Source: a virus
Strand: one strand, 5' to 3'
IMG/VR virus record: IMGVR_UViG_3300005253_001119
Span: 1 to 50,421 of that record
Length of the DNA stretch: 50,421 nt
The position numbers and the translations under genes are program-made. The notes below the pieces were generated by a model. It had not been told where the DNA came from. It made no database searches and worked only from the letters and a program-made list of their open reading frames with translations. Below are positions 6,645 through 49,551 of the stretch, in pieces. The stretch's first letter is position 1; the number at the start of each line of letters is the position of its first letter.

Positions 6645-6699
6645 TTGATGTAGCATTAACATTGATGTATATCGATACAATTTGAAAATGCTACATCAA
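6645..6699 (+). terminator. 13-bp perfect inverted repeat before the glycosylation block
   Basis: TTGATGTAGCATT (6645-6657) pairs perfectly with AATGCTACATCAA (6687-6699); the 29-base loop contains a further ATTG/CAAT pair. It lies just after the fibre gene stop and covers the early TTG (6682) and ATG (6688) codons of the next frame. This makes the downstream TTG at 6733 the better start. It probably acts as a terminator or attenuator separating structural and sugar genes; no T-run is present. Confidence 0.45.
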
Positions 6700-6732
6700 C
6701 ATCATATTTCACATTTAATTAAAGAGGATAAT

Positions 6733-8373: not shown

Positions 8374-9037
8374 AGTAAATAGTTTTTGGCATAGCGAGAA
8401 TAATCCTAGTGATTATATCAGAAGTTTCTCTCATTTCCAGGATTACGGTAAATGGAAAAACAAAGAGTTATGGGATAAATTAGGATTAGATAACTTGGAA
8501 AGATTGGAAACTCTCAAGATGCTATCTGGCAAATCCGAAGTGGTAAATATGATAGAGTGGGGTGTAGGTGGAGGATCCAATGCTGTTAAATTTAGCAAGG
8601 AGATTGATTTTTATGGAGTTGATATTTCAAGAGATAGTATTTCTGAATGCAAGAGGCAACTGAAATTAGTACATAATCGCAATTTTGATTCCCAGTTGAT
8701 ACACATTCAGATTGAGAACCCAGAATTGGTTCCTGAACTGATACCTAAGGTTGATTTCTTTCTCTGCACTTCAGTATTCCAGCATTTTCCTTCTCCAGAA
8801 TATGGTGCAAACGTAGCAGAAATTGCTTATGATATATTAAAAGATGATGGAATAGCATTGATACAAATTAAATATGGTGAGCATCAAAACTATTTTAATT
8901 ATAATGAGAATTTTGCTAGGTTTACTCTTTACCCTATACCACTTTTCTGGGCTTTAATGACGCAGATAGGCTTTAAGGTACTCGCAATCACGTTAGAAAC
9001 TAAAACATTTTATGCTTATTATTACCTTAAGAAATGA
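8345..9037 (+). CDS. SAM-dependent methyltransferase (class I fold)
   Basis: A 230-residue Rossmann-type methyltransferase. Motif I is 'MIEWGVGGGSNAVKF' (about residues 69-83), followed by 'DFYGVDIS' (acidic end of strand 2), 'FLCTSVFQHFPSPEYG' (motif IV region) and 'YDILKDDGIALIQI' (post-IV strand). The gene begins inside the last 29 bases of the Maf-like gene and ends in a TGA that overlaps the next ATG (ATGA), so the three are translationally coupled. The substrate is unknown; O-methylation of the nonulosonic acid or of another glycan sugar is a reasonable inference. Confidence 0.75.
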   Translation: MKKTSQILSEVNSFWHSENNPSDYIRSFSHFQDYGKWKNKELWDKLGLDNLERLETLKMLSGKSEVVNMIEWGVGGGSNAVKFSKEIDFYGVDISRDSISECKRQLKLVHNRNFDSQLIHIQIENPELVPELIPKVDFFLCTSVFQHFPSPEYGANVAEIAYDILKDDGIALIQIKYGEHQNYFNYNENFARFTLYPIPLFWALMTQIGFKVLAITLETKTFYAYYYLKK

Positions 9038-9804
9038 AAACAATAGCAATAATACCCGCTAGAGCGAACAGCAAGAGAATTAAGGATAAGAATATTAAGG
9101 ACTTTGCAGGAAAACCTTTGCTGTTTTGGTCAATAGATATTGCAATAGCATCAAATAAAATTGATGAGATTTATGTTTCAACTGAAAACATACAGATTAA
9201 AGAACTGGTTAAAACAAATTATCGTTTGAGCGAAGATATTTATGGTAAACCAATTAGTATTATTGATAGACCTGATACATTATCACAAGATAATTCTTCT
9301 GTTATAGATGTTCTCAGACATGCTATCAATTATCTAGATTATGAAGAGTGCTTAATAGTACTTCTCTATCCTACTTATCCTCTAAGAACAGATAAATTAC
9401 TCAATGACGTGATTGACTTTGCTATAATGCAAGGTTATGGCAATACAATTACTGTTGTGAAAGGTGATAAGAAAGTTTATTGGTATGTTGATTTTACCTG
9501 TGGAAATAAGATACAGAAGATACTTCCTAATGAGATTTATAGAGAACAGGATATGCAGCAACCATACAAGTTAGCTGGTGCTGTTCATTGTATATTCTCT
9601 GATGACTTGACAGATATGGATCAGAATGGGATGAGTAAGCATAACTTTGGATACGTTATAGAAGAAGAAGCACTATGTTTAGAAGTCGATGATGAAGAAG
9701 CATTCATTAGGGCTGAACAAATAAAACAGTATAGAATATTATCAACTATTTGTTATTATTCCAATAATTCTCATTATGCAAAATGTCATTTTAATTACAA
9801 TTGA
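9034..9804 (+). CDS. neuA: CMP-nonulosonic acid (sialic-type) synthetase, NeuA/PseF family
   Basis: Activates a nonulosonic acid with CTP to give the CMP-sugar donor. The N-terminal nucleotide-binding signature is intact: 'IIPARANSKRIKDKNIKDF' then 'AGKPLLFWSI'. Other family marks are 'IDEIYVSTEN', 'IDRPDTLSQDNSSVIDVL', 'LIVLLYPTYPLR' (equivalent of the LLQPTSPLR motif) and the closing 'LEVDDEEAFIRAE'. It starts with an ATGA overlap on the methyltransferase stop. The last ~20 residues ('CYYSNNSHYAKCHFNYN') extend past the usual family end and overlap the next gene by 29 bases. The sequence cannot tell whether the sugar is Neu5Ac, legionaminic, pseudaminic or KDN-like. Confidence 0.85.
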   Translation: MKTIAIIPARANSKRIKDKNIKDFAGKPLLFWSIDIAIASNKIDEIYVSTENIQIKELVKTNYRLSEDIYGKPISIIDRPDTLSQDNSSVIDVLRHAINYLDYEECLIVLLYPTYPLRTDKLLNDVIDFAIMQGYGNTITVVKGDKKVYWYVDFTCGNKIQKILPNEIYREQDMQQPYKLAGAVHCIFSDDLTDMDQNGMSKHNFGYVIEEEALCLEVDDEEAFIRAEQIKQYRILSTICYYSNNSHYAKCHFNYN

Positions 9805-11023: not shown

Positions 11024-12466
11024 ATGTCTAAAATATTATTCATAAATCCACCAATTAGAGAATGGGCACAGCCTAATAATCCACCGTTAGGCTTATTATA
11101 TATGGCTTCTTATCTAGAAGCACATGGACATAAAGTTGATATTTGTGATTTGAATGCTTTAAGAGTACAATCTCCTGATACTGTATCATGGATTGATGCT
11201 CACTTGGTCAAAGGTTATGATTATGTTGGGCTATCAGGATTGATTTCCACTGCTAGTAAGCAGAAAGAAATACTAGCTCATGTAGCACAACGAAAAATGT
11301 TATGGAAGCATGACTTCAAGGTTGTGCTTGGTGGTGGACTAGCAACTGCTACTTATGATTTTGCTATTAGAAACTATGGAGAACATTTAGATTATATTAT
11401 TGTAGATGAAGGCGAAACTCCAATGCTTCAATTAGCAAATGGGGATAATCCTGATGTTATTAGCAATTTAATCTATAAAGATGAACAGATTTGGAAAAAG
11501 CATAGAAATAGAACATTGATTGATAATTTAGATGATTTACCATATCCTGATTATGATAAAGTTCCTGTCGATACTTACCTAGCCAATCCAATTTGGGGTA
11601 GAGATACTGGCAATTCTTCTTCAATCAATTTTGATATGAAGCGTTCATTGAACATGGTCATATCAAGAGGATGTCCCTATAAATGCAATTTTTGCTTGGG
11701 GCAATTCAAGACGGATAAATGTTCCTACAGAATAAGGTCTGTTGATAATGTAATAAATGAAATTCAGGAATTGTATGATAGATATAACCTAGATTTTATT
11801 GGTTTCATCGATGACAACACTTCGTTTAAAAGAGCATGGATAATGGAATTTTGCGAACAGATGATGAGTACAGGCTTGAGAAAGAAGGTACATTGGGGTG
11901 GAAGTGCTAGAGTTGATAGATTAGACTTAGAAATGCTTCAAGCCATAAGATTAGCTGGTTGTGAATTCCTAGGAATTGGTTTAGAATCGGCATCTCCTTA
12001 CATTCTTAAGATGATGAATAAAGCAAAAGATCCTGAAGGTTACATAGATAAAGCAAAAGATGTGATTGCATGGGTTAAGCAATCCAATATTGTTTGTAAC
12101 TGCACAGCTATGGTTGGATATTATGGTGAGACTTGGTCTACACTGAGGGAAACGGCTCAGTTTATGAAAGACCAAGATATTTTAAATAATCTTTTTTTCT
12201 CCGCACCATATCCAAGCACTGATTTATTTGAAAAAGTTAAGCATAAAATAATTGATAAGTATGGAACTATTGATAACTATATCTTTGATCTAGCAGATGC
12301 AACTGAATTTAGAGTTAATTGTACAGAAGAATTTACAGATGAAGAGTTGATTTATGCTAGAAAATGTGCTATTGGCGGAAGACCAGATCTGATAAACAGA
12401 GAATCATTCAAGAAATTAAATGGAGAGTTTAAGGGTGCTACTTTAGACCCACTTTTAAGCAAGTGA
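11024..12466 (+). CDS. B12-binding-type radical SAM enzyme
   Basis: A 480-residue protein with an N-terminal cobalamin-binding-like domain ('ILFINPPIREWAQPNNPPLG', 'LLYMASYLEAHGHKVDICDL', 'VVLGGGLAT') and a radical SAM domain with an intact CxxxCxxC cluster motif 'ISRGCPYKCNFCLG' (about residues 215-228). Further family marks are 'FIGFIDDNTSFKRAW', 'WGGSARVDRLDLEMLQ' and 'GCEFLGIGLESAS'. Members of this class methylate, cyclise or rearrange unactivated carbons, often in cofactor, lipid and sugar pathways. It starts three bases after the phosphatase-fold gene. Its reaction here is unknown; carbon-methylation or deoxygenation of a virion sugar is inference from context only. Rare in phage structural operons to my knowledge. 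Confidence 0.8.
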   Translation: MSKILFINPPIREWAQPNNPPLGLLYMASYLEAHGHKVDICDLNALRVQSPDTVSWIDAHLVKGYDYVGLSGLISTASKQKEILAHVAQRKMLWKHDFKVVLGGGLATATYDFAIRNYGEHLDYIIVDEGETPMLQLANGDNPDVISNLIYKDEQIWKKHRNRTLIDNLDDLPYPDYDKVPVDTYLANPIWGRDTGNSSSINFDMKRSLNMVISRGCPYKCNFCLGQFKTDKCSYRIRSVDNVINEIQELYDRYNLDFIGFIDDNTSFKRAWIMEFCEQMMSTGLRKKVHWGGSARVDRLDLEMLQAIRLAGCEFLGIGLESASPYILKMMNKAKDPEGYIDKAKDVIAWVKQSNIVCNCTAMVGYYGETWSTLRETAQFMKDQDILNNLFFSAPYPSTDLFEKVKHKIIDKYGTIDNYIFDLADATEFRVNCTEEFTDEELIYARKCAIGGRPDLINRESFKKLNGEFKGATLDPLLSK

Positions 12467-19493: not shown

Positions 19494-20621
19494 ATGAATA
19501 TATATTATTCAGTTTATGATGCTTTATTCAATATAAAGAAGTATAGATTTGGTGATAAACCTAACCAATCCACGGGTTGGGGTAAGTTCATTGAAAACAC
19601 ATTTCAGTATTTACAAGAGTATGGTTATGAAATGGTTGAAAATATAGAGGAAGCTGATGTTGAATTATTTCTGGGTCAGCCTCCTCTTAAACTTCATCCA
19701 TCAATGACACCCAATGCTATATTTACTATGTATGAATCATCTAAATTACCTCAATCATGGGTTAATTCATTGAATAATTGGGATTTAATAATAAACCCTA
19801 GTGAGTGGGGATGTAAGTGCTTTAAAGATAGTGGTGTTAGTACTAGAATAGATAAGATTCCTTTATGGGTAGACCCTTATTTTGAATACAAAGAGAAAGA
19901 TATAAGTAATCAATGGACTTATTTATCAATGGGAGTCCAGCTAACTGATAGAAAGAATCAATTGATGATTGTTAATCTCTTTAGGAACGGGAAAATGCCA
20001 AATGATGCAAAGCTGATAGCTAAAACTACTCCAGTAGACCATAATAATATGGATTGGCATTTTGTCGATAGTGATAATAATGTTCATTTGGTTCAGAAAG
20101 ATATGACTGTGGAAGAGCTTAGAGACTTAATATATGATGCTCATGTTTCCGTTAATCCATCTGGTGGTGAAGGATTTGGATGGATACCATCTGAATCAAT
20201 GCTATCTGGTTGTTGCACAATTCTAAGTGATTTCTCAGCATTAACTCAATTATGTAGCACTAAATGTAATCTTCCGTTAAGATGCAAGGAGATTCAATCT
20301 CCATACAATAAGCTATATGGTACGATTGGTGAACCAGATGAAGAGCATTTATTAAAATTGATGCTATGGACTTATGAGCATAGAGAAGAAGCACTAGCAC
20401 TAGGGAAAGCATCTTCAGAATGGATTAATCATGACTTTTCAATTGATAAGTTTTGTAGCAGATTAAATGCTACATTGACATTATTGGTTAATGAGAAACA
20501 AAAAAGAATATTGAATGTGGATGAAACAAATTATATGAAAGACAGCTTCGCCCCTAGCGGGAAAGACAGTTTCCAGTTGCCTACAGAAAAAATAGAACAT
20601 AGAATGGAGAAATCTAGGTGA
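19494..20621 (+). CDS. GT4-family glycosyltransferase (GT-B fold)
   Basis: A 375-residue retaining-type glycosyltransferase. The C-terminal nucleotide-sugar-binding signature is clear: 'VSVNPSGGEGFGWIPSESML' then 'SGCCTILSDFSAL' (E-x7-E region), with 'WTYLSMGVQLTDRKNQLMIV' opening the C-terminal Rossmann half and 'IINPSEWGCKCFKDSGV' in the N-terminal half. The donor and acceptor are unknown. The last ~30 residues contain 'DSFAPSGKDSF', encoded by an inserted copy of a small repeat (20545-20563) and beyond the normal family end. No strong ribosome site precedes ATG 19494. It begins the second sugar block, which interrupts the tail-gene order. Confidence 0.8.
   Translation: MNIYYSVYDALFNIKKYRFGDKPNQSTGWGKFIENTFQYLQEYGYEMVENIEEADVELFLGQPPLKLHPSMTPNAIFTMYESSKLPQSWVNSLNNWDLIINPSEWGCKCFKDSGVSTRIDKIPLWVDPYFEYKEKDISNQWTYLSMGVQLTDRKNQLMIVNLFRNGKMPNDAKLIAKTTPVDHNNMDWHFVDSDNNVHLVQKDMTVEELRDLIYDAHVSVNPSGGEGFGWIPSESMLSGCCTILSDFSALTQLCSTKCNLPLRCKEIQSPYNKLYGTIGEPDEEHLLKLMLWTYEHREEALALGKASSEWINHDFSIDKFCSRLNATLTLLVNEKQKRILNVDETNYMKDSFAPSGKDSFQLPTEKIEHRMEKSR
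20545..20563 (+). repeat. Copy 1 of the 24-nt GC-rich element (inside a gene)
   Basis: GCTTCGCCCCTAGCGGGAA matches the core of the elements at 23149-23172 and 24054-24077. Here it lies in frame near the 3' end of the GT4 gene and is flanked by GACA(G) on both sides (20541-20545 and 20564-20568), which could be a target-site duplication. It is much richer in GC than its surroundings. Confidence 0.55.
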
Positions 20622-21487
20622 AGGCATTAGTTAGCTTACATAAAACAGAAGAACCGCATGTTTGCTTAGTGTTAGTTGATATTGAGAAGAAAGAAATAGA
20701 AAGAACATTTACTTTTAATGATTTTATAGACTCAAAGCATTTCGAAAGAGAAGATGGTTTAAAAGGGATTAGAGGTATTACTTGGGACAATGATGATAAT
20801 TTCTATTTTGCCACTTATGATAAAGTAATAAAGACTAATTTTGATTTAAGAAATCAAGAAATAATATTCAATGGAATAGATATACATCAAATTGATTGGA
20901 TTAAAACAACATCTGGGGTAGAAGGATTAGGAATTTGCAATACCAATCAAAACTCTGTTATATTTCATATGCTAGATGATGTAGCAATGCTTCATATAGG
21001 TTTAGATGGATTAGTAGAAGATGCTAATCATATCTGTTCTCTGTTTTACAACAATGGTCATTGCTATTTTGTTTATCATAATCATCTTCGAGGTGGATGG
21101 ATTGTACGAAGTGATGACCAGAAAATATATACAGGCAATTTGTTTCAACCTCATAACATTTATGTATCCAATAATGAAGAGATTATGCTTATTTGCAATA
21201 GCAGATATAATTCAGTGGTGAAAGTTAGTGATAAAAATGACAAAGAAGAGCTTATGCTTAGTGCTTATACAAGAGGTTTAGCGTTATCTCCAGAAGGCAA
21301 TATGCTAGTTGGCGAGTCAAATAGAAGTAGTATACCTTCAATATCTATTATTGATTATCATTCATTTAGAAGGATAGACCAGATTGTTTTAACTGAGATC
21401 GATGATAGAATTCAAGGTGAAATCTTTGATATTAGATTATTAGAAAATGATTTATGTATGAGTAAAACAATGATTAAACTAAACTAA
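20618..21487 (+). CDS. Beta-propeller-like protein in glycosylation cluster (DUF4915-like)
   Basis: A 289-residue protein whose GTG start overlaps the GT4 stop by four bases (GTGA). It shows repeated strand-turn-strand units: 'GIRGITWDNDDNFYFATYD', 'GVEGLGICNTNQNSVIFHML', 'LFYNNGHCYFVYHNH', 'PHNIYVSNNEEIMLICNSR', 'TRGLALSPEGNMLVGESN', a pattern typical of beta-propellers, particularly the DUF4915/TIGR03032 group found near glycosyltransferases. No catalytic residues can be pointed out. It may bind or modify a glycan or sense a sugar intermediate. Confidence in the fold is moderate; the role is not known. Confidence 0.6.
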   Translation: MKALVSLHKTEEPHVCLVLVDIEKKEIERTFTFNDFIDSKHFEREDGLKGIRGITWDNDDNFYFATYDKVIKTNFDLRNQEIIFNGIDIHQIDWIKTTSGVEGLGICNTNQNSVIFHMLDDVAMLHIGLDGLVEDANHICSLFYNNGHCYFVYHNHLRGGWIVRSDDQKIYTGNLFQPHNIYVSNNEEIMLICNSRYNSVVKVSDKNDKEELMLSAYTRGLALSPEGNMLVGESNRSSIPSISIIDYHSFRRIDQIVLTEIDDRIQGEIFDIRLLENDLCMSKTMIKLN

Positions 21488-21606
21488 TTAAACCACAGAA
21501 CACACTGAATACACTGAACTGACAAAAAACAAAACAATAAAAAATAATTCTTAATTCTTCGTAATTCTTTGTATTTTCAGTGTATTCAGTGTGTTCTGTG
21601 GTTTAA
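21488..21606. repeat. Perfect 31-bp inverted repeat between sugar genes
   Basis: The left arm 21488-21518 (beginning TTAAACCACAGAACACACTG) and right arm 21576-21606 (ending GTTCTGTGGTTTAA) are exact reverse complements over 31 bases, with a 57-base AT-rich spacer containing three AATTCTT units. The arms fill the gap between the propeller gene and the GT2 gene. The 'ACACTGAATACACTGAA' style repeats an 11-base period and resembles dispersed intergenic repeats seen in many environmental bacterial genomes (recollection, not searched). It could act as a bidirectional terminator or be a small mobile repeat. Confidence 0.8.
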
Positions 21607-21638
21607 TAGTAATATATGAAAGGAATTTATTAATTCTC

Positions 21639-22529
21639 ATGGCGCGAGAAATTTTGTACACGTTGGTAATACCAACGTTTAATAGTGAAAAGATGTTAAA
21701 GAATCTTCTTGAAGATATATTTCGAGAAAGAGATTTATACCCACCTGCATCAATTATCATAGTTGATGATTGTAGCACTGATGATACAAAATACCTACCG
21801 AAGTTCTTTGACTCCGAAGTAATCTCTGTAAACTATATGAAACTGGATAAACAAGTTGGTCCCTTATTGGCTGAAAAGGCTGGTATAGAGCAAGTTGATA
21901 CAGAAATATTCATATCAATTCATGCAGATACTAGATTGAGCATGCAGAACATAAAGATAAGTGAGCATCCGTTAGATGCGCTTGCTTGTTATCTTTGGAA
22001 ATCTAGGCATGAAAGAGATGAAAAGACTTCTGTTGTAGCACCTTGGACTTTACAATTATCAGCACAATACCTTGTTCAAGGTGGACCTAGAGCTTTAAAC
22101 AATGATACATGTCCTTTTAGTATGCAACGCAATTTTGGATTTCGACCATTATTAAAAGTGCCTCGTTCAAAATGGGAATCAGTATTATCAACTGATGCGT
22201 ACTGTTACAGTATGTTTACGGAAGATTATCATGAAGCAGGTGGATTTGATGAAGAATTCTCACCATATTTCTTCTATCATGATGATTTGTTTGCTAGAGT
22301 TAGAGAAAAAGGACATAAGATTATAACAACTACTCAAAAGGTTGTATATCACCCTAGCACTAGCAATCATAAAACAGATTTATTCTTATCAAAGTCTGAC
22401 CCTGATTTATTTGAAAAGAACTTAGAATACTTCATATCTAAATGGAAAGATAATGACTTATGGAAATGGAATGCTCAATTGGATATTGTCCAAGTCCAAC
22501 AAGTCACAGGAGGGTGGGCAGAAAGATAA
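21639..22529 (+). CDS. GT2-family glycosyltransferase (GT-A fold)
   Basis: A 296-residue inverting-type glycosyltransferase. The N-terminal GT-A elements are 'TLVIPTFNSEKMLKNLLEDI', 'ASIIIVDDCSTDDTKYL' (nucleotide-binding DD), 'EIFISIHADTRLS' (the DxD region appears as HAD) and a late 'TEDYHEAGGFDEEFSPYFFYHDDLFARVREKGHKI' acceptor/catalytic segment with an ED-type motif. ATG 21639 was chosen; an AAAGGAA box lies about 17 bases upstream, so initiation may be weak. It directly precedes the NanE gene. The substrate is unknown. Confidence 0.8.
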   Translation: MAREILYTLVIPTFNSEKMLKNLLEDIFRERDLYPPASIIIVDDCSTDDTKYLPKFFDSEVISVNYMKLDKQVGPLLAEKAGIEQVDTEIFISIHADTRLSMQNIKISEHPLDALACYLWKSRHERDEKTSVVAPWTLQLSAQYLVQGGPRALNNDTCPFSMQRNFGFRPLLKVPRSKWESVLSTDAYCYSMFTEDYHEAGGFDEEFSPYFFYHDDLFARVREKGHKIITTTQKVVYHPSTSNHKTDLFLSKSDPDLFEKNLEYFISKWKDNDLWKWNAQLDIVQVQQVTGGWAER

Positions 22530-23141
22530 ATGCTACCTGAAAAAGGACTTATAGTTTCATGCTATATGCATTCAATGACACAATGTACAAAAGTTCTCAT
22601 AGATACAATATGGGAAATTGATGAAGTTAAGACTTTAAGGATAGAAGGTATAGATAATATCAATCATGCAAAGAGATTAAAAGATATTAAGCATAAATAT
22701 ATTATTGGTCTCATTAAAGATAAAGAAAGAGAACTAGCAGGTCTGCCTTATATTAGTGCTTCCATTGATGATATAAAGCGCTTATGTGATTACTCTGGTG
22801 CTGATATGATAGCTATTGATAGCAGAATTTCTGGGCATGATGAAGAAGAAAACATTTATGACTTATACGAAAGTTCTGCGTTACCAATAATGGCTGATAT
22901 TAAAGAAGAAATAGAAGCAGAAATAGCATTTAATTATGGTGCTAGTATTATTGCTACAACCTTTCTTAATAAAGGGTTTGATTTAGCGAAGATCCTAGTT
23001 AAAGAAGGCTTTCCTGTCAACATAGAAGGTGGGCTGACTAGTTATAGGGATATTAGACGCGCAAAGAATATTGGTGCTACCTGGTGGACTGTAGGACGTG
23101 CTATTCATGATGTGAAGACAATAGTAACACAATTTGTGTAA
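22530..23141 (+). CDS. nanE: N-acylglucosamine-6-phosphate 2-epimerase (NanE)
   Basis: TIM-barrel epimerase interconverting GlcNAc-6-P and ManNAc-6-P. The family is recognisable throughout: 'GLIVSCYMHSMTQC', 'TLRIEGIDNI', 'IIGLIKDKE' (catalytic Lys position), 'GADMIAIDSRI', 'LPIMADIKEEIEAEIAFNYG', 'GFPVNIEGGLTS' (catalytic Glu position) and 'GATWWTVGRAIHD'. Known NanE enzymes use a Lys-Glu pair, and both are present. At 203 residues it is slightly shorter than cellular forms. Its ATG follows the GT2 stop with no gap. It would feed ManNAc-6-P to the NeuB-type synthase encoded 9.5 kb upstream. Confidence 0.85.
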   Translation: MLPEKGLIVSCYMHSMTQCTKVLIDTIWEIDEVKTLRIEGIDNINHAKRLKDIKHKYIIGLIKDKERELAGLPYISASIDDIKRLCDYSGADMIAIDSRISGHDEEENIYDLYESSALPIMADIKEEIEAEIAFNYGASIIATTFLNKGFDLAKILVKEGFPVNIEGGLTSYRDIRRAKNIGATWWTVGRAIHDVKTIVTQFV

Positions 23142-23148
23142 TAAATTT

Positions 23149-23172
23149 GCTAGTTCCCGATAGGGGCGAAGC
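23149..23172 (+). repeat. Copy 2 of the 24-nt GC-rich element
   Basis: GCTAGTTCCCGATAGGGGCG followed by AAGC. It is the reverse complement of the copy at 24054-24077 except for two central bases. The two copies face each other and bracket the tail-chaperone gene. An imperfect small hairpin (CCC/GGG with TTC/GAA) can form. Flanking DNA is AT-rich. Confidence 0.65.
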
Positions 23173-23213
23173 AGTAGTTCACAATTTCTATAAAGGAGTT
23201 TCTTGGTAAGACA

Positions 23214-23759
23214 ATGGCTGAACAAATTGATAGTATAAACGAGAGCGCTGGGCTTGACAATGCGATTGCAGATGAAGCTGATGCTAGTATAGATGCTATG
23301 AAAGACTTAGCTAATAGAAAACAAGCTATAAATGAAGTTATGGCTAACATTCCTATTGAATTTGAAGTTCATGATAAAACATTGCAAATCCATTCTAAAT
23401 CAGCAAATAGAATGGTGATAATAGATAAAATCATTGGTGAATTACAATTACTTGGCGAAGAAGAAATTGAATTCCCTGAATTTGAAGAGGATTTATCAGA
23501 AGAGAAACTTAGAGAACAACGTAATGAATTTATGATTAAAGTTGAAGAGAAGAATGCAAAAATTCGGGAGAAGACATTTAAAGTTATTTTCAATATAGTT
23601 AATCCTATACTTGATAAACCTGAAGTATCTATTGATTGGTTAATGGAACATTTAGATATAACTGAAGGTGGAACTGCTAATCAGATAATGGATGCTTATA
23701 ATGAGAAATGTAATCCTGGCTCCTTAATAAAAAAAATCCTGATGAGCAGGAAATTCTAG
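23214..23759 (+). CDS. Tail assembly chaperone (gpG-like, zero-frame product)
   Basis: A 181-residue acidic helical protein immediately before the tape measure gene. Positions 23729-23736 are eight A residues that in the zero frame read A-AAA-AAA, a classic -1 slippery heptamer, 23 bases before the TAG stop. This is the arrangement of lambda gpG/gpGT: most ribosomes stop and give this form, some slip and give the longer fusion. The central region ('FPEFEEDLSEEKLREQRNEF') is charged and the C-terminal part ('VNPILDKPEVSIDWLMEHLD') is compact. ATG 23214 is the start; AAGGAG lies about 15 bases upstream. Confidence 0.75.
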   Translation: MAEQIDSINESAGLDNAIADEADASIDAMKDLANRKQAINEVMANIPIEFEVHDKTLQIHSKSANRMVIIDKIIGELQLLGEEEIEFPEFEEDLSEEKLREQRNEFMIKVEEKNAKIREKTFKVIFNIVNPILDKPEVSIDWLMEHLDITEGGTANQIMDAYNEKCNPGSLIKKILMSRKF

Positions 23760-24034
23760 AAGCAGACGCAGAGTTTGGATTCCTTGATTATCAAGGGAAT
23801 AAAGAGGAAGAAGATTTATATGCCCTTCCTAAATTAGTAGCATCTATCTGGGAAGCTACTCATTGGACACCTGAAGTTATTATGAATCAACCTCTAGCGC
23901 CCCTACTGATGGTATTTGATCAACTCAAAGATCATTCTGATGAGGTTCAAACAGGAAGTAGTGGCGAAGTTCCAATAGAGCAATCTCTAGCAGGCGTTTT
24001 AGCACAAGGACCACCTGACACTTGGGAAGAATAA
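23214..24034 (+). CDS. Tail assembly chaperone fusion (gpGT-like, -1 frameshift product)
   Basis: A -1 slip on AAAAAAA continues translation in the frame that reads NPDEQEILEADAEFGFLDYQ from 23735 and runs open for 99 codons to TAA at 24032-24034. The extension has no start codon or ribosome site of its own that would explain it, and it is protein-like: 'LPKLVASIWEATHWTPEVIM' and an acidic, Gly/Pro-rich end. The fused ~273-residue protein would bind the tape measure and recruit tube subunits during tail assembly. Confidence 0.75.
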
Positions 24035-24053
24035 AGAGCAATTATCAACTTCC

Positions 24054-24077
24054 GCTTCGCCCCTTACGGGAACTAGC
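24054..24077 (+). repeat. Copy 3 of the 24-nt GC-rich element
   Basis: GCTTCGCCCCTTACGGGAAC followed by TAGC. It differs from the reverse complement of copy 2 at two bases. It lies in the 61-base gap before the tape measure gene and occupies the place where a ribosome-binding site would be expected; no clear Shine-Dalgarno remains before ATG 24096. Confidence 0.65.
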
Positions 24078-24095
24078 AAAGTTATTCCATAACTT

Positions 24096-33000: not shown

Positions 33001-34163
33001 AAGTTAATATACCAGACATAAATGTTATTGTGCGCGCTGGGCTTGACAGAGAAATAGATTTATCACAAGGAACTTTAGCACGACTAACACCAGCAATTAA
33101 CTATAATCTCATTCCTGATAAAATTGAAGTAACACCTATTATTGATATAGAACCACAAATCCTTCTAACTCCTAATATTATCAATAAGGTAGAAGTAGAA
33201 GAATCAATGGAAACACATGAAATAAGTTTTGCACCCAAAATAACTAGTGAAGTATTATTTGATCCTCAAATTGAACCTATTATATCATTTAATCCTAATA
33301 TTATTAATAAGGTCGATGTTCCTGAAATTAGCATATCTCCCAAAATAATAACAGATATATCCCAAATTAGTGTGGTTTCGCCAATAGATTTATCATCAAG
33401 AACTATAACTCAGCTAGCACAGCTAACTCAAATAACTCCAATAGCGCCAGCAATTAACAATAATCTTATACTTGACAAGATTCAGGTAGAACCTATCTTT
33501 AATTTCGAACCTCAGCCACAACCATTACCAATTCTTATTGATAAAGGAGAAACGCCTGATATATTTTTGACACCTAATATTATAAATGATGTAGATATAC
33601 CTGAAATTAATGTAGCGCCACCACAAATGCCGTTCATAAACCTTGCACCTGAAATAATAAATAAAGTATTGTTTAAGCCCAATATTATAAATGACGTTGA
33701 TATACCTGAAATAACAAATGAGGTTGATTTATCACAAGTTAGGTTAGTTACACCAAATATTATCAATAGAAATGAGATTAACATTCCAGATATAGATGTA
33801 AGTTATATCATAGATATTCCAGAAGTTTTAATACCTGAAAGTGTTGATATATCGTCTGAATCTATAGCTCAATTAGCACCCGCGATAACAACTCCCCAAA
33901 TACAATTTGTTGAAAGAATAACTCAACCTATTATACAAAAACAACCTGAATATTATCCTAGAGAAGAAGAGTCTAGATCAGTACTTAGTGAACATAAAGA
34001 AGAGATTAACATATCAATTAACATCAATGATAGAACTGTTGTTAGTCAAGATGGAATGTTAGTTGATGCAGTGTTACCTTTATTGATGGAAGAAGAGAGT
34101 AAAATGAAGATGCGAAGAGAAAAAGCTACTGGCAGAAGAGTGTTTAGTCGAGCTAGAGTTTAA
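24096..34163 (+). CDS. Tape measure protein (3355 aa)
   Basis: Sets tail length and is ejected ahead of DNA. At 3355 residues it is one of the largest ORFs expected in a phage and would fit a tail near 500 nm. Residues 1-1140 are long helical/coiled-coil segments. Residues ~1150-1420 hold the recognisable tape-measure core: 'LLIRFGVFGIVKNVFREVSQ', 'LQDTSTAFRVLASQTTS', 'LPVERIDDFMRGARALGP' and 'FESAWKDLRISMGDWLSEAL'. More coiled coil follows to ~2600, then short hydrophobic stretches (~2610-2720). Residues ~2920-3270 are an Asn/Pro/Ile repeat region. No peptidase or lysozyme motif was noticed. ATG 24096 has no visible ribosome site. Confidence 0.93.
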   Translation: MITLILSNAFLITSQFLYSERETRFTVSLDHSEFITGSEEMMRSMDRFHVSTEEVFESLSNSSVKLDATLSGSLESQTRQLENYKGIVRSVEAAISGSGEQIEEAYMDIARTAQEAARTGATRLVFDVEGARVQVDLYKRIIDDFLATISTLSAGVKSGSVTTKEAATSIAKFGAAFVDILPSEFLDQLNRTRMSLRETTMTTDQAAKRIGELGSAMKEVAAKDVTFRFKVDPENIKQVRDVQTAIGQLADESKTSISSLSTFLQSLPQDFPPVANAFKSIATEAGNIEATSGAFAVVNTSLNKLRQTSDEITFSSIQAELERLSQTQAGQAVAKDLNRIIEVVREKTVIETFAESIRDISVDVTSIEDLRSAVSTLSNQFAQVPGTQKYISSLEQFIDTAEESKVPIDTVRKNIFDLSRTVSAGLKPEKALSDIESLTSTLGEQSPAISKVRDELRQLSTLKLETPEDINRFTASIENIKRKLDFTDTTKQASASVGKFTDSLAIVDTDPVISELDKLTDKYQFVRTTFQKELNVEGFAQTQEAIKGVIKEAEEVNNIRPVLSGLRDQIDNLPPALSGVAQGFTQVVATGHKLADIGSTGRQLLALMESLKTSGVTSFEGINNALNQLIRSEHLFADGLQPLKQSLKGVQEELLREADIRQFGEALVLAAKQPSASMTDLEGNVKGVLDAFAGWTRIEGVTDDVASLLNELGKTESVQKARQDLLGFGRTLTEGVGTEEYIEKLSDIGESLAGTGEDTSKFTSILNKFASANIKTAGDADKLNSEIKRTANNLESMGEETKAAQNINKLSESITKSKVDRFGKDITKLTDNLSLTSNSLVSFKDNLLKVGNRYEGMAPSIGNINNLIGDFDDIIKDLISAGLPQLAGRFQGIREEAQKRLGLAFVSEELEKVNSLLSTGDIEDAELSIRDLSSSTQLSANQFKDLRSNLDMLSASLGKQNVLVEASSKIKQIISNKSISSVEELREELKKARTEFENTKGLEEFNESLGDVIETSEEFKKIDHFRKALHGLTTIKTDDIDVIQSSLKGLGDEAKKDARSIEDLVEDLRKLGVSPSGLKSIEKAEESLRGIHGTARKKRVVDQYAKSVEKTADKLDKASTGAKKFTKSLGDINKNAGGMRKLFSGLDAQMSKLLIRFGVFGIVKNVFREVSQAIAGATREIYTLTKESAKLQDTSTAFRVLASQTTSAELALAQVRSAAGGVIDEFELMASATRAAIAGLPVERIDDFMRGARALGPLVGRDIPEAFDRLTSAAIKQERRLLDELGIVIRANDAYKEYARTHKTTVAALSATEKQMAFTEAIIASVNEKILRLGGNLDQAQRPFLRFESAWKDLRISMGDWLSEALAVPDVLSSLTRLMKDFSFSLADASKQSAILAASTLEAYESFKRYSDEFAGSVPRLVKEAQRRIEITEDQTSSIAAQYDAETRLAEIVKTLSTAFPSLAQALKVDVAGGLRAVAEESAKLRQTFQSLSVTRMAEAFQVSIKAYKEASASLSVVREELDLLTAARNKTIEKATPEEIASVDEAIKKYKEQAKAIRMVSLVMSAIPAQQAINLSSTEANIKASTRLTSAFMEEQVAMRSQTEIMEALIKSNIELENITAENFSNVFDTIDAYEDYKVTTADVTLDQFLMNKELETTVSSFVTFAETLGSATDSSEDFKKGIVDLSKEFDKIRAITGLTNEELEEHHELLRTIITDLADVPPATKEWESIFKQFETLTKTYNKFRTQFEPTEFLIDIKPSEKSKIELKRTKAEYKALFNLLATGIEFTGVPADETNKTVAAQQMLNELLEDQQRYIQQIATGETNLAKKTLESIDERLEVYKLDKTQVDELNILSNKQLEIRKQELSINKQIASEKVALTEESIANIKRETKNQIDAYKQIITKREALVSSLDSLDILSYELESRLNKQIAQDRIMLQKAEWSDEQKRLKDKIKSQIAFASTMSNIMNNLVGANKEAVIDMLADVSEMGTEAFKLDIKPGDELSPEKITEAFAKIKDIDIDIPGFKGLGEQTTAMVDMVLTTLSSMLTQVGDETTKVTEKTMSQMEDIMKEYLVALDAGVSEIAAVNNAFLSEEQSIEKERTKNAIASLKRQLSYEKSRVSFIKKANKDILSIEKSSNKATIASRVKALKIEFDALDEEVKKNNEVQQVVQDHAIAAHGQTSDINLENTREYLLKIRRATKTSQLLKIRDEYDIEELGEINKDRLRGEYANQFKSLLDKEIDVIENNIKKRQGLEEAGAINRINVARKETRQKIEELIKVAQAEGKPDEVKRLQELSIASQEIASNKITAIIANASRKRRMESLKLQKDVAGNEEKLARLTIDAQMDAYAETNQRLNDLAQVQKQKHLEDISRLLEATDVNKEELDKRSASLKEVLTLESVTKDNLANADVLREQLLAEAIRKIREKEFNEYQSIMSATSDVLGETSKIAFEINKNLIVSNAAEREKDLEHAKNIAVRKMRRETDVLEEQLKKELEIEADFERKRRALRTATDEELLANVKSHNSAVAESYLETFNIIIESFKAFTELMITDDAEMVEARKNTQVTFWRDQQTLIRKNSDKVIKSNQDLADKLLEIDMKSSERRKLVINSLLDVAQNAGKAVASAYSGDIAGTITSTIGMIQSINRIFDDASNRRKEALEHAKEEFKALKSEWRAAGAELGNAVGQAITDNLDVDWDELVRGFMRAAVASQLGSAFAEMFGPSMDMIKDSLAGAVGRGERWDKLVEDEVTGAQRFINQYEKVLLTQGKVTDEFLRDRFGTDVLEKIIEPYRRGVPIEKIASDVAKSKHGFQSLGKGLDDLNTTWTEMEPEAREIAQRFNSMLGIFEEAEENAGLRTLRAITEPQANQIIVLLGRQVDHLAMISSNTTTLVKNLGKKEEALPQPIELLAPQINSDIIPNKIQTINLAPQIINEVLFEPKIEPVVSFNPNIINEIDVPEINISPHIINEVNIPDINVIVRAGLDREIDLSQGTLARLTPAINYNLIPDKIEVTPIIDIEPQILLTPNIINKVEVEESMETHEISFAPKITSEVLFDPQIEPIISFNPNIINKVDVPEISISPKIITDISQISVVSPIDLSSRTITQLAQLTQITPIAPAINNNLILDKIQVEPIFNFEPQPQPLPILIDKGETPDIFLTPNIINDVDIPEINVAPPQMPFINLAPEIINKVLFKPNIINDVDIPEITNEVDLSQVRLVTPNIINRNEINIPDIDVSYIIDIPEVLIPESVDISSESIAQLAPAITTPQIQFVERITQPIIQKQPEYYPREEESRSVLSEHKEEINISININDRTVVSQDGMLVDAVLPLLMEEESKMKMRREKATGRRVFSRARV
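32850..33900 (+). repeat. Asn/Pro/Ile repeat array in the tape measure C-terminus
   Basis: About eleven copies of a short motif of the type 'PNIINEIDVPEINISP' (variants 'PHIINEVNIPDINV', 'PNIINKVDVPEISISP', 'PNIINDVDIPEINVAP') are grouped in two to three longer super-repeats, each containing 'VLFEPKIEPVVSFNPNIIN'-like segments. The protein region is about residues 2920-3270. Regular beta-forming repeats are unusual in tape measures, which are mostly helical. Confidence 0.75.
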
Positions 34164-34296
34164 TCAATACTAGCATGATTGTTTGGATTACCTTTAAACA
34201 AAGGATATTGCTTGTTGATAATCTGATAGTCCTTCGTCATAAGCATCTATTTTGATTAATCTAATGGTTGATAATTAACAATAATAATAATTAAAT
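34164..34296 (-). repeat. Long repeat, copy 1 (inverted)
   Basis: Read on the - strand this stretch aligns with 34558-34690 over ~133 bases at roughly 80% identity by eye. Shared blocks include TTTAATTATTATTAT, ATTAGATTAATCAA, GACGAAG and CAATATCCTTT, and both end in TAGTATTGA. It begins at the base after the tape measure stop. Confidence 0.65.
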
Positions 34297-34401
34297 AAAA
34301 AGAACATTGGATATGCACACATCAATATATGTTTGTTTTAAAGATGACTCTAGCAAACGTTTATAATTCCTATTGTATGTGAATATCACATATCTTTCTT
34401 T

Positions 34402-34532
34402 TTTTAATTGTCAATCATTAACCATTAGTTGAATTAAGATATATAAGGTAGGACGTCGATGATAAGCATTATTTACCAGTAATCTTTGTATTGTTTGTTT
34501 AAGGTAATTCAAGTTAATTATTATAATATTGA
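34402..34532 (+). repeat. Long repeat, copy 2
   Basis: Same orientation as copy 3 and a more diverged version (about two thirds identical by eye). Conserved blocks are CAATCATTAAC-ATTAG, GTAGGACG, TTGTTTAAGGT, and the closing TATTGATATGTGAATA that is also found after copy 3 as TATTGATATATGAATA. Confidence 0.55.
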
Positions 34533-34557
34533 TATGTGAATACAAAGGTTTTATTGT

Positions 34558-34690
34558 TTAATTATTATTATAGTTAATCATCAACTATTAGATTAATCAA
34601 GATAGATACGTAGGACGAAGCGCTAACAGGTTATTAACAAACAATATCCTTTTTGTTTAAGGTCAATCAAACAAATCGTTGTAGTATTGA
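34558..34690 (+). repeat. Long repeat, copy 3
   Basis: Best preserved + strand copy. It carries CGTAGGACGAAGCGC in the middle and CAATATCCTTTTTGTTTAAG further on, which can form a small CCTT/AAGG hairpin. Copies 2 and 3 are spaced by ~155 bases. The unit has no open reading frame, and conservation across copies looks like that of a DNA or RNA signal. Confidence 0.65.
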
Positions 34691-35060
34691 TATATGAATA
34701 TTAAATGTTTTTGTTGTTGTTTAATTAAATTAGTTCGCTAGTTTATTGTTAGTTTGTTTTTATATTCTTTGTAATGACAATCACTTATTACAGTTATTAT
34801 TGTATCAGTGGACTGAGTTTAATGATTAGGTTTTTTTGTTATGCTCAAAAACAATGTTTTGTGTTGGTTGGTTATTTTGTTTGCCAAACTAAACCAAGAA
34901 CCGAAATGGTGGGTGTAGATTGTAACGTAATACTATTATAAACCATAGAGTTTTTTGCGCTGAACTCGCTGTAGCGCTGACTATCATTAAAGTTACCCCT
35001 GTTTTGAAAGTTGAGCGTTTCGATACTTCATTTGTTGTTGCGCGTATGCGCAAATAAGCC

Positions 35061-35089
35061 TTGTTTTTTGCTGATTTATATGGTATACT
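35061..35089 (+). promoter_or_regulatory. Sigma-70-type promoter for the 35118 gene
   Basis: TTGTTT (35061-35066), 17-base spacer, TATACT (35084-35089) preceded by an extended TGG. Transcription should begin near 35096, before AAGGAG and ATG 35118. The GCGC hairpin at 35038-35053 lies just upstream and could be an operator or terminator. Confidence 0.65.
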
Positions 35090-35117
35090 TGTTTATATTG
35101 GAAAGGAGTTGCTTATA

Positions 35118-35756
35118 ATGGCAAAAACGGGCAATATACAGCAGATTAATCCAGAGACAGGTGAACTGAGTGATGTGCTATTACGTTTGGCTGATTACTA
35201 TCCGCAAAATGGTATGGTGGTAATGGCTAATGTTCATGATGGAATAATAGAAACTGGAGATATTAAGATTTTTCCTCAGAAGAAAGATAGCATTCATAGT
35301 AAAAACGAGAACTTAAGTTATATTCCAGAAGAACTATTAGAGCATGGTATGCGGAATTTGAGCATTTATAAAGTTTATTCAAAGGTATTTCATTTTGAAG
35401 ATCCAAAATTCTCAAAAGATAGCTATTATAAATACTGGTATAACATTTGTAGACACCTGCAAAAAAACACTAATATAATTATCAGTAGGAAACCAACAAT
35501 CCATTTTATAAATGAAATCCAAGAATTTGAGAATATCTGTGATAGTAGCAAATATACGAATTACCGCTTCATCAAAGAATGTAAAAACAGGGGATTTATA
35601 GCTGAATTTCGTGTAGCAAACAAACGCGTATTTGTGGCGCATCCAAAATATGCTTTAAGTGGCAATCAGATTCCAGAAGTCCTTGCCCAACTTTTTGATA
35701 ATGTCATTGGTAATATCACTGATGATGGTATAGTCGAGGACAATAATGATGAATAA
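35118..35756 (+). CDS. Winged-helix-like protein, paralogue 1 of 3
   Basis: A 212-residue protein starting at ATG 35118 (AAGGAG nine bases upstream); the start agrees with paralogues at 39841 and 48919, which all begin 'MA-x-x-G'. The three share 'DPKFSKDSYYKYWYNICRHL' plus 'NTN' (central), a helix-turn-helix-like stretch 'INEIQEFENICDSSKYTNYR', 'FIKECKNRGFIAEFRVANKR' and a beta wing ending 'PKYALSGNQIPEVL'. This layout recalls RepL/MarR-type DNA-binding proteins but no family can be named. The N-terminal ~70 residues vary. It has its own promoter within the tail region, so it is probably a regulatory or accessory gene. Confidence 0.65.
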   Translation: MAKTGNIQQINPETGELSDVLLRLADYYPQNGMVVMANVHDGIIETGDIKIFPQKKDSIHSKNENLSYIPEELLEHGMRNLSIYKVYSKVFHFEDPKFSKDSYYKYWYNICRHLQKNTNIIISRKPTIHFINEIQEFENICDSSKYTNYRFIKECKNRGFIAEFRVANKRVFVAHPKYALSGNQIPEVLAQLFDNVIGNITDDGIVEDNNDE

Positions 35757-35893: not shown

Positions 35894-36178
35894 TTGAAGA
35901 AATGGAAGCGATCCCGTTGCGAAATATGTGAACAATATTTTAGTTGCGATAAACATCATATTATTTCTAGAGCAGATAAGGGAAGTAATCAATCTTATAA
36001 TATTGCGACATTATGCCCTTGTTGCCATAGGCTTTGTGCGACAGGTGAAATAGAGATAGTAAGGCGATATTTGACATCGCAAGGATTCATGCTAGAAACT
36101 GTACAAGAGAATCAAAGATATATTGGTAATAAAGCATTTAATCATCAACCTGAAGTTCAACAACTAACATTGTTTTAA
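35894..36178 (+). CDS. Small HNH endonuclease
   Basis: A 94-residue protein starting at TTG 35894 with AGGAGG eight bases upstream. The HNH module is visible: 'RCEICEQYFSCDKHHIISRA' (first Cys pair and the catalytic His region), 'NQSYNIATLCPCCHRLCATG' (the N and second Cys pair, then the last His). The remaining C-terminus is short and helical. Small HNH genes in phage structural regions are commonly free-standing homing endonucleases. It sits next to a tRNA gene and a GIY-YIG nuclease gene, forming a nuclease island. Confidence 0.8.
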   Translation: MKKWKRSRCEICEQYFSCDKHHIISRADKGSNQSYNIATLCPCCHRLCATGEIEIVRRYLTSQGFMLETVQENQRYIGNKAFNHQPEVQQLTLF

Positions 36179-36192
36179 TCAATGATGGACAT

Positions 36193-36310
36193 GGGGAGGT
36201 TTCCTAGTTGGCAAAGGATGTAGATTGTAGATCTGAACTACTGCTTCGCCCGACGACTTTGTCTTACGGCTGCGTGTTACGCTTCGAAGGTTCGATTCCT
36301 TCTCTCCCCA
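36193..36310 (+). tRNA. tRNA-Tyr (GTA) with a 38-nt insertion in the variable arm
   Basis: The acceptor stem is GGGGAGG (36193-36199) with TCTCCCC (36303-36309) and discriminator A. The D arm is TCCT/AGGA with loop AGTTGGCAA; the T arm is GAAGG-TTCGATT-CCTTC (36286-36302), perfect. The anticodon loop TTGTAGA has GTA at 36227-36229, so Tyr. The anticodon stem is weak (GTAGA/TCTGA has one G-A mismatch and one U-G). The variable region is 49 nt (36237-36285) instead of ~13; GCTTCG occurs at both ends of an insertion (36243-36248, 36281-36286), and removing 38 nt would restore a near-normal Tyr arm. No CCA is encoded. Confidence 0.7.
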
Positions 36311-36421: not shown

Positions 36422-36507
36422 ATTTAACCTACAGGAATGATATATTATGTCTTATAGTGTACCAATTAAGAAAGGATTTAACTTATGGAGGTTATATAAT
36501 AGATTAT

Positions 36508-37446
36508 ATGGATTTGGATACTTCTGGGATTTATGCCATCAGAAACAATATTAATGGGAAAGCTTATATTGGGTCTTCCGTTAATATGCATAGAAGAAGA
36601 CGAGAACATTTCAGTAGACTGAGAAGCAATCATCATTATAATAATCATCTTCAGAATGCTTGGAATAAACACGGTGAGGGAAATTTCACTTTTGAAGTAC
36701 TAGAACTTGTATCCGAAGGAAATCAATTAATTGACAAGGAAAAAAATTGGATTGATGAATTTTCTGAGTCAAGTTATAATCTCATAGAAGTAGATGGAAT
36801 TCATTTTCGGCATTCCAAGGAAACAAAACAGCAGATAGGTGAGTCACAGCAGGGCAAAATAGTGTCCGAAGAAACAAAGCAGAAAATAAGAGCAGCACTT
36901 AAAGGCAAGACACCATCTGAAGAAACGAAGCGAAAGATAAGTGATGCTCAAAAAGGCAAAGTGCTCTCTGAAGAAACGAAACGGAAGATGAGCAAGAGTT
37001 TTAAAGGCAGAAAACATTCAGAAGAGACAAAGCAGAAGATGAGTAAGGCACGTAAAGGACTTAAAGGATTTAAGCATTCTAATGAAACTAAAGAAAAAAT
37101 AAGGAAGGCTAACATTGGTAGAAAGCTTTCTGAAGAAACAAAGATAAAAATTAGTCAAAAGTTAAAAGGCAGAATAGTATCCGAAGAAACAAGAAAAAAG
37201 CTGAGCAAATCGCATAAAGGTAAAACGTTAGCTGAAGAAACAAAAAGACGAATGGGATTAGCTCAAAAACGAAGATTTGCAAGAGATGGACATCCTTGTT
37301 TAGGTAGACCTCGTACAGAAGAAACAAAGATAAAAATTGGACAGAAGTCAAAAGGGCGCAGACATACTGAAGCAAGTAAGAGGAAAATAGCAGAAGCAGC
37401 CAGAAATAGAATGTATCAAAATGATTTACAATTATTCTTGTTCTAA
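36508..37446 (+). CDS. GIY-YIG homing endonuclease with NUMOD3-type repeats
   Basis: The catalytic domain is 'SGIYAIRNNINGKAYIGSSV' with 'NMHRRRREHFSRLRSN' (GIY, YIG and the following Arg), 'HLQNAWNKHGEGNFTFEVLE' and a Glu-containing 'LIDKEKNWIDEF'. From about residue 105 it carries nine or more short basic DNA-binding repeats of the type 'SEETKRKISDAQKGKVL', i.e. NUMOD3. I use ATG 36508; GGAGG stands 16 bases upstream, so initiation is uncertain, and the frame is open back to a GTG at 36457. It probably is a free-standing mobile endonuclease inserted between the tape measure and the distal tail gene. Confidence 0.85.
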   Translation: MDLDTSGIYAIRNNINGKAYIGSSVNMHRRRREHFSRLRSNHHYNNHLQNAWNKHGEGNFTFEVLELVSEGNQLIDKEKNWIDEFSESSYNLIEVDGIHFRHSKETKQQIGESQQGKIVSEETKQKIRAALKGKTPSEETKRKISDAQKGKVLSEETKRKMSKSFKGRKHSEETKQKMSKARKGLKGFKHSNETKEKIRKANIGRKLSEETKIKISQKLKGRIVSEETRKKLSKSHKGKTLAEETKRRMGLAQKRRFARDGHPCLGRPRTEETKIKIGQKSKGRRHTEASKRKIAEAARNRMYQNDLQLFLF

Positions 37447-39804: not shown

Positions 39805-39834
39805 TTGACATTAGCCATTAAAATATGTTATTAT
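39805..39834 (+). promoter_or_regulatory. Promoter abutting the 39841 ATG (leaderless mRNA predicted)
   Basis: Consensus TTGACA (39805-39810), 18-base spacer, TATTAT (39829-39834). The usual start point seven bases after the -10 box falls on the A of ATG 39841, and there is no Shine-Dalgarno between them. Confidence 0.6.
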
Positions 39835-39840
39835 TATATT

Positions 39841-40422
39841 ATGGCTAAACATGGATTAGAAATAATTGATGAAGATACAGGTTATATTATAGAGAACCCC
39901 ATAATAAAATTGAATGGTTCAATTTACAATGGTGATATAGAAAATCTTAGAATTAGTGCAAAAGTCAAAGAAGATAATACAGTAAGAAAACAGAACATTC
40001 AGATTTATAGCATTAAAGAAGAAGAAGTTATTGCAAGAGAACATGAAGAGTTTGGTAAATTTATGTTTGATTTAAACAATGGAAAGATATTCACAAAGAC
40101 ATATCAGACTGAAGATCCTGGATTTAGTAAGAAGAGTTATTATCAATTCTGGCATAGGCTTTGTTGTAATTTAGATAGAGATACGAACATAGTATATTGC
40201 AGAAAACCAGTTCGTCATCGTGTAACTCAAATAAGTGAGATTGCAAAGATTTGTGGTGGAAGTAATGTTACTATAACTAAGTTTATAAAGGAATGTTCTA
40301 TAAAAGGGTTAATCGCTCGTTTTGAATATAAGAAAGAAAAGTTATTTGTTCTCAGCCCCAGGTATGCTCTCAATGGAAACAAGATGCCAATTCTGTTATA
40401 TAATCTATTCGACGTGGATTAG
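39841..40422 (+). CDS. Winged-helix-like protein, paralogue 2 of 3
   Basis: A 193-residue paralogue of the 35118 and 48919 proteins. ATG 39841 is fixed by the shared 'MA-x-x-G' start and by the promoter that ends six bases before it. Shared features are 'DPGFSKKSYYQFWHRLCCNL' followed by 'DTN', 'TKFIKECSIKGLIARFEYK' and 'SPRYALNGNKMPILLYNLF'. It is closest to the 48919 copy, also in the N-terminal 'IIDEDTGYIIENPIIKLNG' segment. No ribosome site exists, so translation is probably leaderless. Function unknown; a DNA-binding regulatory role is inferred from the fold pattern. Confidence 0.65.
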   Translation: MAKHGLEIIDEDTGYIIENPIIKLNGSIYNGDIENLRISAKVKEDNTVRKQNIQIYSIKEEEVIAREHEEFGKFMFDLNNGKIFTKTYQTEDPGFSKKSYYQFWHRLCCNLDRDTNIVYCRKPVRHRVTQISEIAKICGGSNVTITKFIKECSIKGLIARFEYKKEKLFVLSPRYALNGNKMPILLYNLFDVD

Positions 40423-48918: not shown

Positions 48919-49551
48919 ATGGCAGAATCAGGTTTCAATGTAATAAATGGTCAAACAGGTGAAATAGTAGATGATCCAATATTCAGCTTAAGTGATGAAT
49001 TGTATGATCCCAATGATATTGGTTTTAAAATGACAGCTAATTTCAAGAACAACAAGACCAGAAAGCGGAATGTAAGGATATATAGAGTGAATGATGAAGA
49101 GCAAACTGATAATATTGATGTGAATACAGAATATGATTGTGAAAATATACCTGAGCTCAACAAAAGTTGCATTTTCACAAAGTTATATCGAACTAGAGAT
49201 CCTCACTTCAGTAAAGATAGTTATTATAAATATTGGCATAAATTATGTAGTTACTTAAATCAAGATACTAATGTGATTTTCAGTAATAAGCCTAATCTTC
49301 ATAAAGTGAGACACGTTAAAGAGTTGGAGAAGTTATGCGAAGGTAGTCATCCTAGCATTTATAAGTTCGTGAAGGAATGTATGTCCAAAGGTTTAATAGC
49401 AGAATTTAAGTTAAAGGGTGAGAAAGAATTTGTGGTTAATCCTAGATATGCTTTAAATGGAAAGAAGATGCCAGTGTTGCTTTATAACTTATTTAATGAA
49501 AATGATATTAGCGCTGAGTTTGGCAATGATAACTGTGATACGAACGAATAA
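48919..49551 (+). CDS. Winged-helix-like protein, paralogue 3 of 3
   Basis: A 210-residue paralogue of the proteins at 35118 and 39841. It starts at ATG 48919 ('MAESG'), with AAAGAGG upstream. The conserved blocks are 'DPHFSKDSYYKYWHKLCSYL' then 'DTN', 'RHVKELEKLCEGSHPSIYKF' (recognition-helix region), 'VKECMSKGLIAEFKLKGEK' and 'NPRYALNGKKMPVLLYNLF'. The N-terminal ~70 residues are acidic and variable. This copy has the most complete promoter of the three. All three are monocistronic or nearly so, which suggests independent expression. Confidence 0.65.
   Translation: MAESGFNVINGQTGEIVDDPIFSLSDELYDPNDIGFKMTANFKNNKTRKRNVRIYRVNDEEQTDNIDVNTEYDCENIPELNKSCIFTKLYRTRDPHFSKDSYYKYWHKLCSYLNQDTNVIFSNKPNLHKVRHVKELEKLCEGSHPSIYKFVKECMSKGLIAEFKLKGEKEFVVNPRYALNGKKMPVLLYNLFNENDISAEFGNDNCDTNE

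Follow-up and report, generated by a model that had tools for sequence, protein, structure and literature searches.

A phage tRNA-Tyr gene with a 49-nt variable region that may have captured a short GC-rich repeat from elsewhere in the genome

The window, i.e., the whole stretch of DNA that was analysed, is a linear virus record of IMG/VR, 50,421 bases long, and carries tailed-phage genes, among them those for a head maturation protease, an HK97-type capsid, and a tape measure protein. When the whole window was scanned with Rfam, a tRNA at 36193–36310 was the sole RNA family match. The gene lies between two endonuclease genes, and the features of the locus are as follows.

35894–36178 (+), gene of an HNH endonuclease, just before the tRNA (PF01844 and PHROG HNH matches)
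36193–36310 (+), tRNA-Tyr(GUA) gene; variable region of 49 nt, no encoded CCA (Rfam RF00005; ARAGORN with joined flanks only)
36220–36236 (+), anticodon arm GUAGA-UUGUAGA-UCUGA, with three Watson-Crick pairs, one U.G, and one G.A mismatch (sequence, fold energy)
36227–36229 (+), anticodon GTA (sequence; read as gta by ARAGORN on the joined flanks)
36234–36251 (+), TGAACTACTGCTTCGCCC, an exact 18-nt copy of 23164–23181 on the other strand (exact-repeat search)
36237–36285 (+), variable region, 49 nt (sequence comparison)
36248–36270 (+), extra hairpin GCC(c)GACG...UGUC...GGC with GAC/GUC inside (cloverleaf-constrained fold)
36272–36285 (+), probable native Tyr variable arm, GCGU-GUU-ACGC (hairpin 36272–36282) and then UUC (constrained fold; parallels in phage contigs L052 and L105)
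36457–37446 (+), gene of a GIY-YIG/NUMOD3 homing endonuclease, following the tRNA (PF01541, PF07460)

The results showed that the gene is a genuine tRNA-Tyr(GUA), as the original prediction had proposed. The intact gene scored 39.3 bits against RF00005, whose gathering score is 29, the alignment containing a long variable-region insert, and its tRNA fold is directly supported. The acceptor stem GGGGAGG/UCUCCCC is paired at 7 of 7 positions with one G.U and is followed by the discriminator A; the D arm is canonical, with the stem UCCU/AGGA and GG in its loop; and the T arm GAAGG-UUCGAUU-CCUUC has a fully paired 5-bp stem and the conserved T-loop TTCGA. None of these three stems contains a mismatch. 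The anticodon loop UUGUAGA (36225–36231) is 7 nt long and has GUA directly after U33. The determinants of tyrosine identity, G1-C72, A73, and U35 (PMC9976931), are all present. Judged from its sequence, the tRNA is intact in its identity and tertiary residues.

All arms had been described as recognisable, which holds for the acceptor, D, and T stems but only in part for the anticodon stem, where a regular five-pair helix is not present: GUAGA/UCUGA gives three Watson-Crick pairs, one U.G, and one G.A. Folded alone, the anticodon arm had an energy of +0.1 kcal/mol. The unconstrained fold of the tRNA (−34.3 kcal/mol), which pairs the D loop with the insert, was slightly better than the cloverleaf (−32.7 kcal/mol). 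The weak anticodon arm and the alternative fold speak for impairment, and it is quite conceivable, though not the reading that we favour, that the extra sequence wrecked the anticodon stem and that the gene is decaying and no longer used. The two mobile endonuclease genes at its sides are consistent with such a fate. Against it stand the mismatch-free acceptor, D, and T stems, the conservation of the D-loop GG, T-loop TTCGA, U33, G1-C72, and A73, and a score that exceeds the Rfam gathering cut-off. Retention of the insert in a tRNA that tolerates it is slightly ahead of decay, the two being nearly equally likely, and the odds that the tRNA is charged are close to even.

The length of the variable region, 49 nt, agrees with the original prediction and is directly supported, as against 12–18 nt in eleven ordinary phage tRNA-Tyr; the arm thus has roughly three times its normal size. 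Instead of the single hairpin of usual length it contains two hairpins in a row, and both of the small hairpins that had been foreseen appeared in the cloverleaf-constrained fold. In E. coli tRNA-Tyr, UUC stands between the variable hairpin and the T stem. The same order is found in some other phage tRNA-Tyr, with GGCAUUAUGCC-UUC in L052 and ...AAGC-UUC in L105. The native arm is thus most likely GCGU-GUU-ACGC-UUC, which occupies the position of the L052 and L105 arms.

The extra sequence had been described as a 38-nt insertion flanked by GCTTCG repeats. These repeats do exist, at 36243 and 36281 and thus 38 nt apart, but they are probably not the boundaries of an insertion, as the right-hand GCTTCG, together with the GCGU-GUU-ACGC hairpin, is probably part of the native tRNA-Tyr arm. 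Removal of the sequence between the repeats, which was expected to restore a near-normal arm, would instead take out this probable native arm and leave approximately 11 nt without a hairpin. ARAGORN did not call the intact gene, but called tRNA-Tyr(gta) after the flanks had been joined either at the 38-nt GCTTCG repeat or at a 29-nt CTGC repeat. The 38-nt-deleted version was thus recognised as a tRNA-Tyr, but because both joins were accepted, this does not favour the GCTTCG boundaries. We infer that the extra sequence probably lies 5′ of the native hairpin and has its start in the 3′ half of the anticodon stem: the 18-nt repeat match begins, at 36234, exactly where the pairing of this stem degrades to U.G and G.A. 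Its right end, placed by the CTGC repeat, would be at about 36269–36271.

The flanking GCTTCG repeats and the hairpins had also raised the idea of an insert that is self-removing or is spliced out at the RNA level. Like the introns of bacterial tRNA genes, it is extra sequence within a tRNA gene; unlike them, it is much shorter, lies in the variable region, and matches no intron family in the Rfam scan of the window. Neither a group I nor a group II intron could be as short as 29–38 nt, and one of the two repeats appears to belong to the native arm. We know of no bacterial mechanism for excising 29–38 nt from a variable arm. Introns in bacterial tRNA sit at position 37/38 (PMC4033280). A self-removing sequence is thus unsupported, and it is very unlikely that the insert is lost in this way.

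The window tRNA shares with class II bacterial tRNA-Tyr the GUA anticodon, G1-C72, A73, the D-loop GG, a long variable arm, and the stem-loop with UUC before the T stem, and differs from them in its two-hairpin variable region of 49 nt and its weakened anticodon stem. A close parallel is the tRNA-Tyr(GUA) of phage contig L105 (13515–13621, −), which has a 39-nt variable region and normal D and T arms. Both genes have an oversized arm, similar Rfam scores (38.1 bits for L105), and the same anticodon, and both are missed by ARAGORN. The L105 arm, however, is one long hairpin (GCUU..UUGAC/GUCAA..AAGC) beside an intact and strong 5-bp anticodon stem, and it shares no repeat with the window tRNA. 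L105 shows that oversized tRNA-Tyr arms occur.

An exact-repeat search of the window was informative on the origin of the extra sequence. Among the exact repeats of at least 18 nt, the pair 36234–36251/23164–23181 stood out, the others listed being protein-coding or local inverted repeats. Some 18-nt repeat was also contained in 6 of 20 Markov controls; the match in the window has 10 G+C of 18 in a sequence of 35% G+C. When the 15-nt core CTTCGCCCCTTACGG was searched with up to two mismatches, three matches were found, at 20546 (+), 23157 (−), and 24055 (+), compared with 0.00 in 100 shuffles. Including the one in the tRNA, the 50-kb phage contig thus holds four copies of the repeat, and the other three are as follows.

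20537–20569 (+), copy c1: CTTCGCCCCTAGCGG as the core, with an exact GAAAGACAG on either side, within a glycosyltransferase ORF
23154–23181 (−), copy c2: upstream of a tail-chaperone-like gene, source-like for the tRNA insert
24045–24078 (+), copy c3: precedes the tape-measure gene

The exact 18-nt identity is directly supported, and both the GC-rich repeat family and its likeness to the tRNA insert are more than chance, in line with the resemblance that had been noticed originally. The left half of the repeat is exact in the tRNA copy, and the right half is a weak match (TTACGG after 12 extra nt). Because c1 is flanked by two exact GAAAGACAG, its 24-nt unit preserves the reading frame. This 9-nt flanking direct repeat was found at c1 only, and, unlike at c1, no target-site duplication was seen at the tRNA copy. 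Copies c2 and c3 lie in a 65-nt inverted repeat that is 80% complementary.

The small dispersed repeats of cyanobacteria and the Rickettsia palindromic elements are approximately 24 nt long and GC-rich, form a short hairpin, and are found in both coding and RNA genes. The repeat of the window shares these features with them, but it has only four copies and no exact match of its consensus elsewhere: none was found in 84,980 genomes or in IMG/VR. Loose consensus matches in genome and viral contigs came only from unrelated contigs of higher G+C, and the search of plasmids and phages gave chance matches only.

We also considered that the variable arm had grown naturally without any captured repeat, and that the likeness to the repeat reflects chance or shared composition. 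The 39-nt arm of L105, which reached its length as a single hairpin and without such a repeat, lends this some weight. What makes it improbable is that 18 nt are identical between the tRNA and c2 and that 0.00 matches to the c2 core are expected from shuffling.

The reading that we prefer, with a probability of approximately 0.55, is that the class II arm of this tRNA-Tyr was enlarged by capture of a GC-rich repeat of the same phage. A repeat copy would have been inserted 5′ of the normal variable hairpin, beginning in the 3′ half of the anticodon stem, and would contribute one small hairpin beside the native one. The inserted copy probably derives from that at 23154–23181 or from a near relative of it, which sets the presumed direction of copying. 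Capture may have occurred by template switching or by repair at short homology, and the repair of a double-strand break near the flanking endonuclease genes would be a plausible occasion. Insertion is what we infer here, since no relative with an empty site was among the data. The transcript would most likely pass through ordinary tRNA end-processing with the insert kept, as the variable arm points away from the body of the tRNA.

A different role for the insert would be that of an antisense RNA, as its 18 nt are perfectly complementary to the + strand leader at 23164–23181, some 32 nt ahead of the tail-chaperone-like gene at 23214, and both regions lie on the + strand. In a ranking of 833 windows, the raw duplex came within the top few. 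Such complementarity is, however, automatic whenever a repeat is present in both orientations, and the pairing leaves the ribosome site uncovered. Antisense action is therefore highly improbable, and the same low likelihood applies to a working tRNA-Tyr whose retained insert doubles as a regulatory RNA against this leader.

The gene at 23214 has a feature of its own. It precedes the tape-measure gene and ends at 23759, and the −1 frame is open to 24034 after eight A at 23729–23736, so that 23214–24034 (+) looks like a tail assembly chaperone with a programmed frameshift. After the tape-measure gene there is a 0.95-kb non-coding gap with imperfect inverted repeats at 34163–34691 (113 nt, 83%; 40 nt, 78%) and a third related stretch. 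Another inverted repeat, at 21487–21607 (43 nt, 91% complementary, 35 nt apart), lies between two ORFs, one of them a glycosyltransferase. Three related ORFs among the tail genes (35061–35756, 39805–40422, and 48919–49551) have a 47-nt stretch in common and gave no Pfam or PHROG match. Within the structural module, 6682–8373, 11024–12466, and 19494–23141 hold genes of sugar and cofactor type, which encode MptE-like and B12-binding radical SAM proteins, two glycosyltransferases, and a NanE-like epimerase.

Searches for relatives gave little. The tRNA region had no match in annotated phages, and its 3′ half had none in IMG/VR; neither the tail protein adjoining the tRNA nor the HNH protein upstream of it found a match in these searches. 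The capsid recovered nothing more than a 5.7-kb piece of this same virus and, as the nearest capsid in annotated phages, that of a Microcystis phage with 26% identity, which is too distant for a host call.

Phage loci were also scanned for tRNA-Tyr with long variable regions; the matches listed from the broadest scan were mostly coding DNA. Among the matches listed, we observed two families of phage tRNA-Tyr(GUA) candidates that lack a D hairpin and in which the segment following the acceptor forms pairs with part of the long variable region. Family 1 consists of candidates in L013 (3933–4053, −), L042, L060, L061, L087, L088, and L102, and family 2 of those in L123 (about 9006–9094, +), L124, L125, L128 (about 6885–6973, +), L131, L132, L134, L135, and L146, plus duplicates. 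In family 2, the six nucleotides between the acceptor and the anticodon arm pair with six nucleotides of the variable region, with 53 of 54 cells paired; the second strand of L132 and L135 was taken from a fixed place before UGG. Covariation is strong: each of positions 2–5 has between two and four types of pair, and the changes affect both strands. When the partner strands were re-dealt 100,000 times, this degree of pairing was reached twice, with strands read by eye and related sequences uncorrected for. The corresponding pairing of family 1 is of the ACGGCA/UGUCGU type and varies little.

By reading, a second helix is formed by UUGCC/GGCGG in family 2 and by CUGC/GCAG in family 1, and the variable stem of L146 is GCCC/GGGC. 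As this second helix interleaves with the D-strand helix, the arrangement would be an H-type pseudoknot. Neither ARAGORN nor Rfam reported a tRNA at these positions in the loci tested, and no other tRNA-Tyr was found in the stretches examined of several of the large tRNA arrays in which the candidates sit, i.e., those of L102 (18 tRNAs), L128 (26), and L132 (19). Two of the pseudoknot candidates had no match in annotated phages, and the literature searched does not describe a pseudoknotted tRNA-Tyr. These families make a stronger and cleaner case than the window tRNA, which is ruled out as a member of the class by its canonical D arm UCCU/AGGA with GG.

If our preferred reading of the window tRNA, capture of the repeat, is true, the variable arm of a phage tRNA-Tyr is able to take up a short repeat that looks mobile. 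The gene also exposes a blind spot, as ARAGORN misses such long-armed tRNA-Tyr genes, and the candidates with a pseudoknotted D strand are missed by both ARAGORN and the Rfam tRNA model.
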